From IMG/VR virus record IMGVR_UViG_3300008267_000016, positions 1-64,000 of that record: a stretch of DNA of 64,000 nucleotides. One strand, given 5' to 3'. The stretch is from a virus. Positions 2,174 through 14,011 of this stretch are shown here, in pieces; position 1 is the first letter of the stretch; every line of letters starts with the position of its first letter. Position numbers and translations under genes: made by a program. The notes under the pieces were generated by a model. It was not told where the DNA came from. It made no database searches and was given only the letters and a program-made list of their open reading frames with translations.

Positions 2174-3697
2174 ATGCCAAGCAGAGAGACATTTGCATAT
2201 CGCCGTGCACTTAAGTTGCGAGCTGCGAAAGCAGTTGACTCTGAGAGCTCTACCATAGATAATATCTTTATGAGAGCTGCTGATGACTTTCATACATTCT
2301 GTACGATTATGGATAAAGCCCCAGCAGCCCATATGCTGGAGTGGCATAAGCATCTAATAACGGGAGACAGTAATCGTTATTTAATCGATATCGCAGGACC
2401 AAATCTTGATATTCTTGCTCCGCGAGGCAGCGCTAAAAGCACTGTACTCAATATGTTTACAGCGTGGATTATAGGTAGGCACACAACAGCAGGTTTACCT
2501 CTTCAAATTATTTACTGTTCTTACAACATCGCCACGGCTATCCCAAAAAGTCGAATCATTAAACAGATTATCGACTCGTCTACTTACAAAAAGATTTTTC
2601 CAAAGGTGCAGCTTCGGTCGGGTATGCAATCAGATATCGGCTGGAGTATTGATTTTGATTATGCCGGTATCAGCCGTGTGGGTGATGAAGAGTTTACTCT
2701 GAGAGCAGCAGGACTACGAGGCTCTATTACCTCTAAACGTGCTCACCTTGTTATTGTAGATGACCCTATTAAATCTAGTACTGATATTAAGAACCCTACT
2801 ATTCGAGAGGAGATGAATAACAACTGGAGCTCCGTTATCGCTCCGATTATTTTTGAAGGCGGTCGAGCTATCTGTCTGGGTACTCGTTTCCACCCGTTAG
2901 ACATCCACAAAACGATGTTTGTCCCCGATAAGGGCTGGAAGCAGGTACAACAGGAAGCTCTTACTTATGACGACGACGGGGAGCCTGTTAGCTATTGGCC
3001 TGAACAGTGGAGTGTTGACTATTTATTAGGTCAGAAAGAACTAGATCCTGTTGCTTTTGCGTTCCAGTATCAGCAACAACCCGTGATGACATCAGATCTG
3101 GTCCTTTCACCGGACCTTCTGGTTAAAGGAGATGTTGTCACTGAGTTCGATAGTTTGGCGGTGGGCATTGACCTATCAGCCAGTAAAAATGAAACGTCAG
3201 ATTATACGGCTTTTGTTCTAGGAGGTAGGTTAAAAGATAAGTACTATATTATTGACGCACACCAGGTGCGCTCTATTGGGAACCTTGAAAAGATAGATCT
3301 TCTATGCAAAATGTTGGTTGAGTGGGGGATTCTGCAAGAAGACAACGATGGTAAGTATTTCCCTACTTACTCGACTTGTACTTTGGTTGTTGAATCAGTT
3401 GCTTATCAAGCTTCGCTAGCGGCCGACTTGAGGCGCGTCATGTTAAACGAATGGGGTTTGGGTAACCTCCATATTCACGAAGTAAAAGGATTTAGAGGAG
3501 ATAAGATCGCTCGTTTCCGAGGTACGCTCGGCCTATTGGAAAATAAAAAAGTCATGTTCAACCGTTTCCGTAAATTTGATGCTTTATTTGATCAGTTAAT
3601 AAATATCGGAGCGACCTCTCACGATGACTTACTCGATGCTTACACACACCTAGTGTGCTATCTGCAGCGACGCGGTAACTTTGAGATGGAGTTCTGA
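2174..3697 (+). CDS. terL: Terminase large subunit (ATPase and nuclease)
   Basis: 507 residues, the usual length. The protein is the DNA-packaging motor that docks on the portal, hydrolyses ATP and cuts concatemeric DNA. The ATPase domain has Walker A APRGSAKST (about residues 82-90), Walker B HLVIVDDP (about 191-198) and the coupling motif CLGTRFH (about 234-240). The RNase H-like nuclease domain starts at VGIDLSASKNETSDY (catalytic Asp about 333), continues with VVESVAYQ and ends with HDDLLDAYTH near residue 485, giving the expected acidic triad. It is the first rightward gene of the late arm. No small terminase subunit was recognised nearby. Confidence 0.95.
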   Translation: MPSRETFAYRRALKLRAAKAVDSESSTIDNIFMRAADDFHTFCTIMDKAPAAHMLEWHKHLITGDSNRYLIDIAGPNLDILAPRGSAKSTVLNMFTAWIIGRHTTAGLPLQIIYCSYNIATAIPKSRIIKQIIDSSTYKKIFPKVQLRSGMQSDIGWSIDFDYAGISRVGDEEFTLRAAGLRGSITSKRAHLVIVDDPIKSSTDIKNPTIREEMNNNWSSVIAPIIFEGGRAICLGTRFHPLDIHKTMFVPDKGWKQVQQEALTYDDDGEPVSYWPEQWSVDYLLGQKELDPVAFAFQYQQQPVMTSDLVLSPDLLVKGDVVTEFDSLAVGIDLSASKNETSDYTAFVLGGRLKDKYYIIDAHQVRSIGNLEKIDLLCKMLVEWGILQEDNDGKYFPTYSTCTLVVESVAYQASLAADLRRVMLNEWGLGNLHIHEVKGFRGDKIARFRGTLGLLENKKVMFNRFRKFDALFDQLINIGATSHDDLLDAYTHLVCYLQRRGNFEMEF

Positions 3698-6822: not shown

Positions 6823-7638
6823 GTGCTCATCGACGCGTTTCCGTACTTCAACGAACGAGAAATTCTTGAGTTACGGATTAAGACACTAGAAGATCACGTT
6901 GACGGTTTCTTAATTACCGATGCAAATAGAACGCATCGCGGTGAGGAAAAACCTTTTACGTGCTTAGACACTATTCGTGAACTTGGTCTTAACGAAGACA
7001 AGATTCAAGTTCTCCATGTTGAGCTTCCGTCCTACGAAGAAGCTCCAGATCCTTGGATTCGGGAACGAGGTCAGCGGGACGCTTTAGGTGTTGGGCTTCA
7101 TATGATGCCTGACGATACTGTTTTTATTTGCTCTGACTGCGACGAAATAGCTAACCCCAAACGGTTCCCAGAGTTATTGGAGACTGTAAAAAATAATAAG
7201 GATAAGATTGTACGCCTTAGCATGTCGATGCACTACGGGCGTGCTGATCGACAGCTTGTTTCTCCTGAAGGAGAGCTGTTCGACTGGCGTTGTGGTGTTG
7301 TAAGTACTGTTAAACAGCTAAAAGAATTAGGCACTCTGTCTTCTATGCGTGCCAGTCAAGATAATTTGTACTTTGGCAAGCGTGACGCAGGTTGGCACCT
7401 GAGCTGGATGGGAGATTCGGATAAGCGTCGTACAAAGCTGCGCTCTATAGCTGAGTATTACATCTGGGATAAACCAGAAGTTCAGAAAATGTGCGATGAA
7501 TTTGAACCTAATGAGGGTAGTACAGATATGTTGGGTCGTGAGGATCATTTGATTACTTACTATTCCATCGGAGATTTACCCGAGGAAGCGGTTAAACTGG
7601 AAAGAGTCAAAAAGTACCTTCTTCCAGATGGCGAATAA
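6823..7638 (+). CDS. Glycosyltransferase family 17-like protein
   Basis: 271 residues from a GTG start. The opening LIDAFPYFNEREILELRI and the motif FICSDCDEIANPKRF (metal-binding Asp-Glu near residue 105) are typical of GT17, the family named for beta-1,4-N-acetylglucosaminyltransferases and widespread in large phages. The product is probably a sugar transferase acting on virion or host-surface glycan. It is one of four carbohydrate-active genes in the first 7.6 kb. Acceptor and sugar are unknown. Confidence 0.8.
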   Translation: MLIDAFPYFNEREILELRIKTLEDHVDGFLITDANRTHRGEEKPFTCLDTIRELGLNEDKIQVLHVELPSYEEAPDPWIRERGQRDALGVGLHMMPDDTVFICSDCDEIANPKRFPELLETVKNNKDKIVRLSMSMHYGRADRQLVSPEGELFDWRCGVVSTVKQLKELGTLSSMRASQDNLYFGKRDAGWHLSWMGDSDKRRTKLRSIAEYYIWDKPEVQKMCDEFEPNEGSTDMLGREDHLITYYSIGDLPEEAVKLERVKKYLLPDGE

Positions 7639-7819: not shown

Positions 7820-10045
7820 ATGGCCAGCTCGACCGAAACACGAAAAAGATTTACTGAAATCTTAGAGGCCTCGCGCACTCAGGATCGAAGCAACCAGGCT
7901 TCGACGATGGTTGTTCTGAGCCATCTTCAGCAGATGACTCTTCTGATGATCAAGAAGGGTCTAGCTTTTTATTGCGATCAAGATACATTTAGAAGCCGTA
8001 CACGATTTTTAGAAGACATAATTGCTCTAAACAAATTAGATATTCGTTTTCCTGCGATTATTCGTAATTTTTTAATCGACGGTTGCGGTCTGTTTTACTT
8101 CCGACCAGACCCAAAACTTAAATATCAGATTTATTTCTTCAACAAAAATCAATATCGTGTGTACCATGACGTTAATGGCAACGTAGAAGAAGTCATTATT
8201 GTCTATAGCTATAAAGTAAAGAACGCAAATTTAGGCTTACCTAGTAATTCTTACGGGCAGAACAAGCGTTATGTACGTTTAACGATTACTGCCGATGAAA
8301 TTAGTGAGGTTGAAACTGATACCGAGCTCAGTTTTGATCTTGAACCTGGCGCTGTTCTGACTCCAGCCAAAAAAAGACCTAACACACTTGGTTTTATTCC
8401 CGCTGTTGAGGTTTTAAACAAGCCAAACGCCAGTGGTACTGAAGGTGAAGGCGAATTTGATCCTTTTATGGAGCAAATTTGTTTACACGATGAGCTGACA
8501 CGCAACATCGCCAAAAATATTGAGTTTTTTGGCAACCCGACGCTGATTAGCTCTCGTCCACGGAGTGATCTGGTCGAAGCTAGTGATGCTCAGAGCACTT
8601 TTAGGCCCACAATCAGCAGTCAGAGTGGTTTTGCCGGTGTCGACAGCCCCTCGACTCGAGTAAGTGAGCCTTTTGGCTCGAGCATGGGCGGCGGTTTGCG
8701 TGTTCCGCGCATTATTGCCAACGTTGAGCCGTCTGACCGAGTTGGTTACATGACACCGGACCCCGTTAACGGGGATATGAACCGGTATGCCCTTCTTTTA
8801 CGAGAAGAGATTCGCACAGCCTTAGGCGGTGTGGATGAGATTTCAATTTCTGCTGGTGCTACTGCCACGGAAATTAAAGGTTTGATGGGTCGAGCTCAGG
8901 CCACGGCTCTCCGGAAGAACAAAAGTTTCCTTACGTATGGGTTTAATCGTCTCTTGGAAATGATGATCTATCACCAGGAGACTATCTTCCGTGAGTCGTT
9001 TATTGCGGCTGCTGGTTTAAAAGAGCCGAAGCCGCCGAAAGAACAAACCGAAGAAAATATTGAGAAATATCAAAACGCGTTAGCTAAGTTCGAAGCAAAA
9101 GTTACTCAAACTATTCAGCTAGCTCTTCAGGAAAACAAGGTCCCTCCCGGAGTTATCGGGCTTCCAGAAGATGGGGATCGAACTGTTACGTATCGATACC
9201 AGGGCGACGTCTACGAAGACACTGCTTACGATATAAACCAGAAGTCCATCGTTGTACGTAACTTACAAGAGCTTGGTGTGGATAGCATCGAAGCTCTTAA
9301 ATTCCTTTTTCCTGAAAAAACTGACTCTGAGCGAGCTGAAATGTTGAAGGGTTTCCCCTTCCGCATGGTGCAACAGACACAATCAGCAATGCAACAATTT
9401 CTGGTATTATTAAGCCAGATGTTGCAGTCGCCGCATCCACTTGCGCCTAATCAGCCACTTGCGGCTGATCCTAGACTGAACATAACTCCGCTCCTTTACA
9501 GGACATTCGACCACCTCGCGGAAGAACTAACTTACTCGGGTAGCTATGAGCCAGCAGATCCAAGCTTCGATCCCGAGCCCGGTCTCCCCGGCGGTAGCCC
9601 CGGCGGCAACTTCGGACCAGGGCTCAACCGCCTACCCGCAGTGGGTGGCGCAAACCTCTACCCCGGCGGTAGCTTCGGTTCCTACAGCCCAACCGCCGTC
9701 GCAGGTGGCACCGGCTACGGGCCCTTCTACCAACAGCCAGTACAACCAGTTAACGTCGCAATCCTCCCCCAGCAATCCGTGGGAAGCAGCGATGGGTACC
9801 CTGGAACGGGTGCTCTCGCAGGTGAACTCTCAGTCCCCCAGCCAGGTTCAACAGTCGCCTTACCAGGCAACTCAGCAACTGGCTACTCAACTGAGCAGTC
9901 AGAATTTACAGGCCCAACCCTGGGCTTACCAGGAGCAGCAGGCAGCGCAGACCTGGCCTACCAGCGCCTCTCCGACCCAAGCTTCCTCGCAAACTTCTAC
10001 GGCCCCGCAAACGAGCGTAAGCCCCGTAACCGCCGAGGTCGTTAG
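7820..10045 (+). CDS. Portal protein with long overprinted C-terminal extension
   Basis: 741 residues. The portal forms the dodecameric ring at the capsid vertex through which DNA enters. The body (about residues 1-575) is a mixed alpha/beta protein with long helices, including FLEDIIALNKLDIRFPAIIR, a block of beta (YQIYFFNKNQYRVYHDVNGN), LMGRAQATALRKNKSFLTYG and a Gln-rich helix QQTQSAMQQFLVLLSQMLQS. Position after terminase and before capsid genes, and size, fit a portal; I saw no diagnostic motif. The last 167 codons are Gly/Pro/Ser-rich, GC-rich and overlapped in another frame by the next gene, so the tail beyond about residue 575 may be an accident or a second coding layer. Confidence 0.75.
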   Translation: MASSTETRKRFTEILEASRTQDRSNQASTMVVLSHLQQMTLLMIKKGLAFYCDQDTFRSRTRFLEDIIALNKLDIRFPAIIRNFLIDGCGLFYFRPDPKLKYQIYFFNKNQYRVYHDVNGNVEEVIIVYSYKVKNANLGLPSNSYGQNKRYVRLTITADEISEVETDTELSFDLEPGAVLTPAKKRPNTLGFIPAVEVLNKPNASGTEGEGEFDPFMEQICLHDELTRNIAKNIEFFGNPTLISSRPRSDLVEASDAQSTFRPTISSQSGFAGVDSPSTRVSEPFGSSMGGGLRVPRIIANVEPSDRVGYMTPDPVNGDMNRYALLLREEIRTALGGVDEISISAGATATEIKGLMGRAQATALRKNKSFLTYGFNRLLEMMIYHQETIFRESFIAAAGLKEPKPPKEQTEENIEKYQNALAKFEAKVTQTIQLALQENKVPPGVIGLPEDGDRTVTYRYQGDVYEDTAYDINQKSIVVRNLQELGVDSIEALKFLFPEKTDSERAEMLKGFPFRMVQQTQSAMQQFLVLLSQMLQSPHPLAPNQPLAADPRLNITPLLYRTFDHLAEELTYSGSYEPADPSFDPEPGLPGGSPGGNFGPGLNRLPAVGGANLYPGGSFGSYSPTAVAGGTGYGPFYQQPVQPVNVAILPQQSVGSSDGYPGTGALAGELSVPQPGSTVALPGNSATGYSTEQSEFTGPTLGLPGAAGSADLAYQRLSDPSFLANFYGPANERKPRNRRGR

Positions 10046-10556: not shown

Positions 10557-10694
10557 GTGCATACGCTTACAGATCGCCGCCGGAAGACTCCTGTTGAGCA
10601 AAAGAAAGAAGAGATTTCCACGCCGGTTGAGCAAGAACCCGCTCCCGCCGCTGAGCAATCTGAAACTTTTGATGAGTCGATTGTTATTAGCTGA
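10557..10694 (+). CDS. Small charged protein, 45 residues
   Basis: GTG-initiated frame directly after the terminator, with AAAAGG about ten bases upstream. The product is strongly charged and probably disordered (TDRRRKTPVEQKKEEISTPV, then a Pro/Glu-rich part ending in DESIVIS). It overlaps the end of the leftward membrane-protein gene by 8 bases. Function unknown; a short decoration or cement peptide is one possibility. Confidence 0.5.
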   Translation: MHTLTDRRRKTPVEQKKEEISTPVEQEPAPAAEQSETFDESIVIS

Positions 10695-11025
10695 TCTCGT
10701 CGTTTTTATTAACACCTACGCGTCTTTCTAGTTCTTTTTCTGCGAGACGTTCGGCAGCGGCCAGTATCCGAATGCCTGCATATCCGATTATGAAAGAGGT
10801 GGCGATTGACTCGTTCTTCGTTAGTTTGAATCGCTCCTCGATTGCTGGACTTACAAACGTAGCGAGCATCCAGCCAACTATAGAGGCTTTGATTAAATAA
10901 GGAATTACTTTTTTAATCCCGCGTGGGTGTGTCAGGCTTTCTGTAATTGATCCTGAAAAACAGGCTATAGAAGCTTCAGGATCTTCGAAAAACATTGTCA
11001 GGGCTCTTTCTATCTGCGAGGACAT
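10687..11025 (-). CDS. Small membrane protein, holin-like
   Basis: 112 residues on the strand opposite to its neighbours. Two hydrophobic segments are visible: about residues 41-63 (VIPYLIKASIVGWMLATFVS) and about 73-92 (ATSFIIGYAGIRILAAA). They are followed by a charged tail (AERLAEKELERRVGVNKND). Two membrane helices and a charged C-terminus fit a holin, but other phage membrane proteins look the same and the endolysin is 30 kb away. A lone reversed gene between scaffold and capsid suggests a separately controlled accessory gene. Confidence 0.55.
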   Translation of the reverse strand: MSSQIERALTMFFEDPEASIACFSGSITESLTHPRGIKKVIPYLIKASIVGWMLATFVSPAIEERFKLTKNESIATSFIIGYAGIRILAAAERLAEKELERRVGVNKNDEIS

Positions 11026-11089: not shown

Positions 11090-11893
11090 ATGGTGTATAC
11101 GCCGCAGACAAACTGGAAATATGATAAGAATCTGTACCACCCAATTCAATCTGGTCCGCAACGTACGGGTGATGATCTTGATCTAACTGATACTTATTTA
11201 GTTGTATCTAGTGGGTTTGTCACGCCTCTAGGTTTCACGCAGACCTGGTACGGCGTTAATGATCAAGGGGCTGACTTTGGGCGTATTCCTGTAGGTCCGC
11301 CGAATTTAAGCGGTTATTTCACTACTGAGTGGAAAGCTGTTCCGCCTGCCGTATCTGGTTATTGGACAAATTACGAAAATACACTTCCTCACGCTTCTGG
11401 GCTTTTAGATACTTACGTCGGTTTCAGGGCGCAGGGTTTATACAGCACTGCTAATGCAACTGTTCAAACTGCTTTCGGGCCACGGCCAGGTCTCAGAAAT
11501 TTTGGCACGCATACTTGGTACGGCGAGCAGATACCGGATAACCAGCTCTACAGTCCCTTCCAGACACCAGCTTCAAACGACAACACGATTGAGGGCGGTG
11601 GGATTACTGGTGGTGGGGTTACACACCCCACAAATCAGTCACCAACTTTGACAAACCCCACAAACGATACCTCTGGGTCTCGTGCTGCTTGGGTTTATCA
11701 CTACCCCATCTACTGCCAGTCTCTCACTGAAACAAGGTATACGGGTGTCCCCGGTCAGATGGGTTCTCCGGCTCGTAATAGTTACAGAGGTAAATCGTTG
11801 CGATACGCTCCGAATTACGGATCTGTATATGGTGTGCTTGGTGAGGGTGTACGTAATATGGTGCGTACATTTAGCCCCGGCACTAAAATCTAA
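11090..11893 (+). CDS. Unrecognised virion protein upstream of the major capsid gene
   Basis: 267 residues, rich in Tyr, Gly, Thr and Pro with little charge (TQTWYGVNDQGADFGRIPVG). It has a Gly/Thr-rich stretch around residues 165-195 and a basic Tyr-rich end (YRGKSLRYAPNYGSVYGVLG). The composition suggests an extended beta-structured surface or head protein. The location directly before the capsid gene supports a virion role. Family not recognised. Confidence 0.65.
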   Translation: MVYTPQTNWKYDKNLYHPIQSGPQRTGDDLDLTDTYLVVSSGFVTPLGFTQTWYGVNDQGADFGRIPVGPPNLSGYFTTEWKAVPPAVSGYWTNYENTLPHASGLLDTYVGFRAQGLYSTANATVQTAFGPRPGLRNFGTHTWYGEQIPDNQLYSPFQTPASNDNTIEGGGITGGGVTHPTNQSPTLTNPTNDTSGSRAAWVYHYPIYCQSLTETRYTGVPGQMGSPARNSYRGKSLRYAPNYGSVYGVLGEGVRNMVRTFSPGTKI

Positions 11894-11977
11894 ACCGCTA
11901 AGAACGCGACAAAGCTCTTACTTATCTCGCTTCTAGGGTTTTAAGATTAACTTTGTAGTTTCTTCTGGATATTATCG

Positions 11978-13093
11978 ATGTTCATCGATAATGATTTCCC
12001 GAAGATTCTTGGTGCTGAACTGTACCGTCCTCACCCCGCATACATCGTTGAGATGGCTGCGGAGCCTGTGGTTGTTCACGATTTTTCGAAGCAACCCGGC
12101 CAGACTGTGCAGCTTGACCGTTACCGCTTCTTCGGTAACCCCGGCTCCAAAGAATCTCGCGAGCGTACTGCTGAGCAGACCATCGGTACTGCTAACAGCC
12201 GCAATATCGTGAAGGATAAGGTGCTCGTGACGCTTCGCGAGTACACCGGTCCTGCTGACCCGAGTGACCCCACTCAGCCCAGCACTTTCAAGATTGCACG
12301 TGAAACGCTGATCACTGCTCAGCGTCTGCTTCTTGATACCGGCAACCTCACCACCTTCCACCAATCCATTGGTAGCCTGACGCTGCTCGACGACTATCGT
12401 CGTTGGCGTGATCGGGTGTTCATCAACGAACTCCTGAAGGCTGTTTCTAAGGGTCAGTCTTCTGACACCCAAGGCGGTTACTACTTCCCTGGTGACCTTG
12501 CCACTGGTGCTCTGAGCTATACCAACGCCGAGCAAGCTAAGTTCGACGTTAAGGATGACCTGCTACGCGTGGTGAAGAGCCTGCGTAAGCGGAACACTCC
12601 TACCTTCCAGGATGGTTTCTATCGCTGCGTTTGCGATCCGACCTTCCTGATGCACCTTCGTCAGAACAGCGACTTCCGCGAAGTTGCTCGTTATCCTGGC
12701 AACGGTCAAATCAACCCCCTCATGTCCGGGATGCAGCCCAACGCTGCCCTGTACATGGGTCAAGGCTTCGGCCAAGCCACCTTCGTGGCTGGCGAGCCGA
12801 TCATGCCCACGGGCTTTGTGTTTGAAGGCGTGCGCTTCTTCGAAAGCACCAACATGCCTACTCAAACCCAGAACGCGACCATCGCATCGGCTACCAAGGC
12901 TTACAATGCAGCCGTTGGTATCTTCTTTGGTCCGCAGGCCGTTGGTGTTGGCATCGGTGGCAACAACGCCCAGGTGCTTCTCAACAACAACGACGATTTC
13001 AGCCGTTTTATCATGATGATTTGGAGCCTGTACGCAGGTTTCGAACTTCTGAACGCTGACTTCGTCACCGTTGGTTACTCTTTCGACGCTTGA
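11978..13093 (+). CDS. Major capsid protein
   Basis: 371 residues. The HK97-type shell protein is expected here, after portal and scaffold, and this is the best candidate. It shows an N-terminal beta segment (VHDFSKQPGQTVQLDRYRFF), a long helical spine region (IARETLITAQRLLLDTGN) and a C-terminal beta domain ending in ADFVTVGYSFDA. The overall look recalls N4 gp56-type capsid proteins, but I cannot confirm the family. Codon use is sharply different from most neighbours: C-ending codons (AAC, TTC, ACC, CGC) dominate, as expected for a very highly expressed gene. Confidence 0.8.
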   Translation: MFIDNDFPKILGAELYRPHPAYIVEMAAEPVVVHDFSKQPGQTVQLDRYRFFGNPGSKESRERTAEQTIGTANSRNIVKDKVLVTLREYTGPADPSDPTQPSTFKIARETLITAQRLLLDTGNLTTFHQSIGSLTLLDDYRRWRDRVFINELLKAVSKGQSSDTQGGYYFPGDLATGALSYTNAEQAKFDVKDDLLRVVKSLRKRNTPTFQDGFYRCVCDPTFLMHLRQNSDFREVARYPGNGQINPLMSGMQPNAALYMGQGFGQATFVAGEPIMPTGFVFEGVRFFESTNMPTQTQNATIASATKAYNAAVGIFFGPQAVGVGIGGNNAQVLLNNNDDFSRFIMMIWSLYAGFELLNADFVTVGYSFDA

Positions 13094-13107
13094 GGAGGTA
13101 ACTAACA

Positions 13108-13986
13108 ATGACGATTAACCCTAACCAGATCTCGGTTGCCAAGATTTATCCCGGCAACTACACCAACGTTCTTCGTTACTGGCACGAAGAAAAGACCGTA
13201 CAGTTCGAGAACGCCAACGGCGTTCAGACGAGCTACACCAACCAACCCGTTGGTGGCCCTGTGGGCGTGGTCTTCCGTCCCGGTTGGATTGCTCAGCAAG
13301 CCATCGGTTACGTCGACCTGAGCTATCAGGCTCTCGGCACCAATAACCAGCTGGATTACTACACCCAGCCTTATGGTTCCGGTCAGAACGGGGCTAACCA
13401 GCCCTTCCTGAACGCCAACGTCATCATCCCTTCCCCCGATTTCCACAAGGACGTCCGGGCCGACATCACCAACGGCATCACCGTGCCTTCTGGTGCTTTC
13501 GTGTACCGCACTTCCCTCCGTGTGGACGGCGGCGATGTGGTGAGCTCCGGCGTTGCTGGCGGCGCTGCCGCACCTCAGCTGACCCTGATCCCCGCTGTGG
13601 GCCAAGGTCTCCGCAACACCACCACTGTTGTGTCTGGTCAGTTCGGTACCTCCGTTACTGGTTCTGACAGCCGCATCGCTAACGGCAGTGTGGCCTCCAC
13701 CAACATCATCAACTCGAGCAGCCTGTCTGCTCTGACTGCTGATACTCAGTGGAAGCTGTTCACCACCACCAACCTGGGCGGCGTTGCCGCTTCTGGTCTG
13801 GCTCAAGGTTCGGGTATCTACGATCCCCGCGCTGGTGCTGGCAAGCTGTCCGGCAAGAACAAAGCTCTTGCCATCTGTGAAGTGTGCTGGATCGTTCCCG
13901 ATCAGCCGCCCGAGCGTTCTGATCTGGCTCTGCAGCCTGCAGGTGTCATCGAATCTCAGATCTACACCTCGACTTCTCCGACCTGA
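13108..13986 (+). CDS. Major virion protein, probably capsid decoration or second head protein
   Basis: 292 residues preceded by a very strong ribosome binding site (GAGGAGGT, seven bases before the ATG), the best one seen in the window. It shares the C-ending codon bias of the capsid gene and is followed by a strong terminator, so it must be abundant. The sequence is beta-rich with few charged residues (QPVGGPVGVVFRPGWIAQQA, RTSLRVDGGDVVSSGVAGGA) and ends in a Ser/Thr tail. A decoration or major tail or neck protein is likely. Family not recognised. Confidence 0.7.
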   Translation: MTINPNQISVAKIYPGNYTNVLRYWHEEKTVQFENANGVQTSYTNQPVGGPVGVVFRPGWIAQQAIGYVDLSYQALGTNNQLDYYTQPYGSGQNGANQPFLNANVIIPSPDFHKDVRADITNGITVPSGAFVYRTSLRVDGGDVVSSGVAGGAAAPQLTLIPAVGQGLRNTTTVVSGQFGTSVTGSDSRIANGSVASTNIINSSSLSALTADTQWKLFTTTNLGGVAASGLAQGSGIYDPRAGAGKLSGKNKALAICEVCWIVPDQPPERSDLALQPAGVIESQIYTSTSPT

Positions 13987-14011
13987 TACAGTCAGATCGC
14001 GAAACAAGGGG

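Follow-up and report, generated by a model that had tools for sequence, protein, structure and literature searches.

A long, conserved overlap between the portal gene and a probable scaffolding-protein gene in viruses related to Synechococcus phage S-EIV1

In the virus described here, the last 500 nucleotides of the portal gene are also read, on the same strand and in the +1 frame, as the first part of a second gene, referred to below as ORF2. Judging from comparisons among relatives, in which both frames stay open and both are under purifying selection, the overlap is almost certainly dual-coding. Overlapping genes are a known kind of arrangement, of which the portal/ORF2 case is an unusually long and deeply conserved example. 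The reading that we prefer as a whole, to which we assign a probability of about 0.7, is that two capsid-assembly proteins would be made from one region of mRNA, with ORF2 acting as the scaffold; the scaffold role is the element of it that is less certain.

The source virus record is 85,268 bases long, and the window, i.e. the whole stretch of DNA that was analysed, is a 64,000-nucleotide part of it. Within the window, the portal gene occupies positions 7820 to 10045 of the plus strand and encodes 741 amino acids, while ORF2 begins with an ATG at 9546 and runs on the same strand to 10472 (308 amino acids). The overlap thereby spans positions 9546 to 10045 of the plus strand, comprising portal codons 576–741 plus the stop codon and ORF2 codons 1–166; a preliminary description of this DNA had given the 500-base length, the +1 frame and the coordinates exactly. 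The order of the head genes is terminase large subunit (2174–3697, phrog_38), portal, ORF2 and major head protein (11978–13093, phrog_1357). The name 'portal', which had likewise been proposed beforehand, is borne out by the terminase gene upstream and the head protein gene downstream, by matches to phrog_20475 over residues 7–727 (1e-166) and to the portal family phrog_64 (2e-5), and by Foldseek, in which the top matches of a low-confidence model (pLDDT 40) are portals (best E 1.5e-6). The protein has a structured body to about residue 580, in keeping with an earlier estimate of about 575 and with similarity to the S-EIV1 portal that extends to residue 582. There follows a Gly/Pro/Ser-rich tail of 166 amino acids, all within the overlap (30 Gly, 23 Pro, 16 Ala and 16 Ser), which includes a motif, GS-A/P-DL, that recurs in all clades and which terminates in a basic patch, ERKPRNRRGR. 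This tail would be disordered and would lie inside the capsid. As had also been remarked, the overlap is far richer in GC than its flanks, with a fraction of 0.628 (62.8 %) against 0.451 (45.1 %) in the portal body, 0.527 in the rest of ORF2 and 0.470 in the window, and both of its products are of low complexity, the residue counts giving a Gln/Ser/Pro-rich start of ORF2 opposite the Gly/Pro/Ser tail. Among the neighbouring genes, a glycosyltransferase family 17 domain (PF04724, 5.7e-14) is encoded immediately 5' of the portal gene (6823–7638), and a holin-like gene (phrog_2359, 1.3e-5) is found on the minus strand between the ORF2 and capsid genes (10687–11025).

Among 50,697 phage records, only one cultured relative was found, Synechococcus phage S-EIV1 (KJ410740; AHV82224 and AHV82225), which has the same gene pair, with a homologous portal (767 amino acids) and a homologous ORF2 (325 amino acids) that overlap by 554 nucleotides, as opposed to 500 in the window. 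From IMG/VR, 80 window-like loci (clade W) and 80 S-EIV1-like loci (clade E) were obtained, and a third clade (M) was reached via a contig in a metagenome-assembled genome, the label 'marine' for this clade coming from the bin rather than from a checked habitat. The portal of the window is 47.5 % identical to that of S-EIV1 over residues 4–582, about 44–47 % identical to those of E members and 42 % identical to those of M. Both frames are open for at least 430 nucleotides in 279 (80 W, 70 E and 129 M) of the 281 loci that have a closed portal frame; because certain M contigs were retrieved twice, the number of distinct sequences among the 279, which is 203, is the safer count. Of the two exceptions, one (L107) has its portal stop nine bases from the contig end, and the other (L260) has a break in its portal frame about 1.1 kb 5' of the overlap; one more locus (L268) ends at the start codon. 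The start and frame of ORF2 are kept in all three clades, and none of the relatives, when checked for it, has a portal stop near residue 575. Across the group, the overlap ranges from 446 to 638 nucleotides, the maximum being in the S-EIV1 clade. Portals of that clade are 767–795 amino acids long, their stop shifting to points within the conserved helical region of ORF2 and changing the length of the overlap. When a fourth clade at greater distance, or an outgroup lacking the overlap, was sought, the additional loci returned all belonged to W, E or M. In one third-clade locus (L164, 6507–7448), a gene for an RNA polymerase sigma factor (phrog_351, 1e-78) lies shortly 3' of ORF2.

The test of selection followed the idea behind OLGenie (PMC7531306): for pairs of relatives, each single-nucleotide difference was classed as portal-changing, ORF2-changing, both or neither. 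The pairs were disjoint, and the bootstrap was over codons. For the portal frame, dNN/dSN was 0.067 (0.032–0.117) in W, 0.156 (0.088–0.266) in E and 0.123 (0.071–0.193) in M, and for the ORF2 frame, dNN/dNS was 0.081 (0.039–0.143), 0.078 (0.045–0.117) and 0.087 (0.047–0.138), respectively, such that all upper 95 % limits are at most 0.27; sham-frame ratios in flanking single-coding DNA were 0.85–1.57. An all-pairs version of the test was concordant. The synonymous rate of the portal frame falls from 0.42, 0.40 and 0.43 upstream (W, E and M) to 0.09, 0.06 and 0.08 in the overlap, and that of the ORF2 frame is 0.08, 0.12 and 0.11 in the overlap versus 0.38, 0.37 and 0.37 downstream, i.e. synonymous change is 3- to 6.5-fold lower within the overlap. 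The comparison of synonymous rates among relatives that the preliminary description had suggested thus shows that, in all three clades, each frame is under strong purifying selection. When examined in 35-codon windows, both frames are constrained along most of the overlap, with the constraint on the portal frame being locally weak near the tail (1.79 in E and 0.71 in M at window 175).

Dual coding is supported along two independent lines, namely that both frames persist in 279 of 281 loci and that purifying selection is codon-phased in both frames of three clades, and the same observations bear on the readings in which only one frame encodes a protein. Gly/Pro/Ser-rich codons rarely yield stops in a shifted frame, and one frame might therefore be coding while the other lacks stops by chance. 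In trials on the window sequence by itself, in which the portal protein was kept unchanged, the +1 frame came out free of stops in 0.6 % of cases under synonymous resampling and in 1.5 % under codon permutation; a chance of about 1 % for a single sequence is not negligible, and the longest other alternative-frame run in the genes of the window is 123 codons. Such a single-sequence test is suggestive only, and it is the comparison across relatives that decides, since the ratios lie far below 1 in both frames of three clades, compared with about 1 for sham frames, the two frames are open together at all but two loci, and motifs are conserved across clades in both products. Given the selection ratios in both frames, chance opening was rejected and retains next to no probability. 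An RNA structure or a packaging signal, with no second reading frame, would account for the unusual conservation of synonymous sites in the overlap, but change there is codon-phased in both frames, and for that reason this explanation too was rejected and has a negligible likelihood. For changes that are silent in both frames, the rate is neutral or nearly so (dSS 0.54, 0.58 and 0.27, from few sites), the rarest changes are those that alter both proteins, and indels preserve the frame.

For the synthesis of ORF2, independent internal initiation is favoured because the start follows an in-frame stop and because a Shine–Dalgarno sequence is near-invariant in two clades; as far as the sequences indicate, it appears to be the best mechanism, ahead of frameshifting. 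The translation start region of the window (9533–9548, plus strand; TAC TCG GGT AGC TAT G) lies inside portal codons, and the ORF2 frame has an in-frame TAA at 9528–9530 of the same strand, five codons upstream of the ATG. In W, the open frame of ORF2 begins 15 nucleotides 5' of the ATG in nearly all loci, and in E and the majority of M an in-frame stop stands 1–2 codons ahead of the start. The start is preceded in E by ACAAAAGGAGATGAGTT, then ATG, and in M by AAGGAGTTAAGTTACA, then GTG, the Shine–Dalgarno sequence being encoded in both clades by the portal Lys-Glu codons AAG GAG. These codons are AAG GAG in 55/55 sequences of E and, in M, AAG in 58/58 and GAG in 57/58, against a background usage of AAG/GAG of 0.42/0.34 in E and 0.32/0.32 in M, with AAA and GAA being commoner elsewhere in the portal. 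Start-region codons of W are also near-invariant at synonymous sites (TCG 61/63; GGT, AGC and TAT each 63/63). The duplex with the anti-Shine–Dalgarno sequence is weak in the window, at −3.9 kcal/mol, versus −9.4 for S-EIV1 and −7.7 for the marine clade, such that the strong Shine–Dalgarno of the S-EIV1 ORF2 is absent from that of the window; for the head protein of the window, the value is −3.1 kcal/mol, which is close to that of ORF2 in the same genome. Phage structural genes, e.g. those of tail chaperones, commonly use programmed frameshifting, which could in principle deliver ORF2 as a portal–ORF2 fusion with no start of its own. However, in every clade most loci have an in-frame stop one to five codons ahead of the ORF2 start, the start and Shine–Dalgarno are nearly invariant at synonymous sites, and ORF2 is under selection from its first codons onward. 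Fusion by frameshifting was rejected based on the upstream stop and the conserved start and Shine–Dalgarno, and is very improbable.

Regarding its function, the product of ORF2 is probably a scaffolding protein, as judged from its position and predicted architecture; it is proposed to work like a scaffold, and membership of a scaffold family is not claimed. As for a scaffold, its gene sits between those of the portal and the major head protein. The N-terminal 166 amino acids (30 Gln, 29 Ser, 24 Ala, 20 Pro and 18 Thr) make up a low-complexity half that is predicted to be disordered apart from one conserved helix (NPWE, residues 77–94), and the C-terminal half is conserved and predicted to be helical. 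AlphaFold2, with an alignment built from the window and the fetched IMG/VR loci only, places helices at residues 78–94, 175–223 and 268–304, at low confidence (mean pLDDT 45). Motifs that are conserved across clades are NPW within the overlap and FGxEAPxxLNxYA and LTxPDxL outside of it. Searches of ORF2 against PHROGs, Pfam and the PDB returned no match, and neither did hhalign with the T7-like scaffold P-SSP7 gp9. Scaffold proteins diverge fast, and the absence of homology is therefore weak evidence against a scaffold role. The term 'scaffold-like', as used in the preliminary description, is thus plausible in terms of position and architecture but is not matched by homology to PHROG, Pfam, PDB or T7-like scaffold entries. 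Those same searches leave some room for the overlap being real and both proteins being made, with ORF2 as another head or virion protein, e.g. one for ejection or decoration, as does the presence of further unassigned genes near the capsid gene (11090–11893). We consider that outcome unlikely, though of real weight, as the location between portal and major head protein, the size, the predicted disorder and the predicted helical C-terminus best fit scaffolds.

In the scaffold reading, ribosomes from the portal start would read on to 10045 and yield a portal with a disordered Gly/Pro/Ser tail and a basic end, while other ribosomes would initiate at 9546, within the portal gene but in the +1 frame, and yield ORF2. 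The ORF2 start site would be written in portal codons, with a strong Shine–Dalgarno in the S-EIV1 and marine clades and a weak one in the clade of the window, and the resulting scaffold would consist of a disordered, Q/S/P/A-rich N-terminal half with the NPW helix, followed by a helical C-terminal half. Both frames would be translated and the portal tail would interact with ORF2; by analogy with P22, the two products may meet in head nucleation. In codon-usage likelihoods computed to identify the older frame, both frames of the overlap depart from the usage of the genome (z −3.8 for portal and −5.2 for ORF2). As to origin, the odds appear evenly balanced that a virion-protein domain of ~165–210 amino acids, either the portal tail or the front half of the scaffold, was born by overprinting, within a lineage of large dsDNA phages that is abundant, and has been kept since before the freshwater/marine split, with portal and scaffold, as partners in head nucleation, evolving under a shared sequence.

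Several known systems resemble the portal/ORF2 pair in part. The Rz/Rz1 spanin genes of lambda-like phages, which encode lysis proteins, overlap on the same strand in different frames, with Rz1 embedded in Rz; the present case is similarly one of two dsDNA-phage genes on one strand in different frames, but with the end of one head-assembly gene overlapping the start of another. In lambda C/Nu3 and similar protease–scaffold nests, the scaffold is in frame and shares protease sequence, and while the putative scaffold here likewise has its start within a head gene that precedes it, that gene is the portal and is read in a different frame. To our knowledge, the P22 portal (gp1) and scaffold (gp8) genes do not overlap in another frame, which sets them apart from the portal/ORF2 pair. 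The C-terminal barrel of gp1 is unstructured in the procapsid, in which scaffold and portal touch, and gp8 has a helix-turn-helix coat-binding domain (PMC12005531). Among dsDNA viruses, overlapping reading frames are a common feature (PMC8903798, PMC7017920), although the 446–638 nucleotides seen here compare with a median of 14 (IQR 8–26) for viral +1 overlaps (PMC8903798) and with 185 for the largest near-identical overlap common to phage families (PMC7017920). The preliminary description had called such a long same-strand overlap rare. A portal–scaffold overlap in different frames was not found among the open-licence papers searched.

Most overlaps in dsDNA phages amount to a few bases, whereas the portal/ORF2 overlap is about 500–640 nucleotides long, involves two genes for head assembly, and persists in a widespread virus group whose portals have diverged to about 42 % identity. 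With hundreds of aligned sequences and a cultured phage, the group offers a natural system for studying two proteins that share one sequence. Gene-calling programs that do not allow long overlaps would cut ORF2 short or overlook it, and the probable scaffold may consequently be mis-annotated throughout the group. This has occurred for S-EIV1, the GenBank record of which annotates ORF2 from 59863, as the last 133 of its 325 amino acids, and lacks the overlap. In the same record, the major head protein ORF (locus L001, 8320–9471, plus strand; phrog_1357, 1e-19) is not annotated whole; across 8245–9471 of that locus (KJ410740 60784–62010), the annotation consists of an antisense ORF (AHV82227) and the last 471 nucleotides of the head ORF (AHV82228). 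In the window, minus-strand ORFs of 187, 181 and 301 amino acids lie opposite the head protein gene and the gene that follows it (11972–13108 and 13102–14007), and these long antisense ORFs are probably by-products of codon bias.
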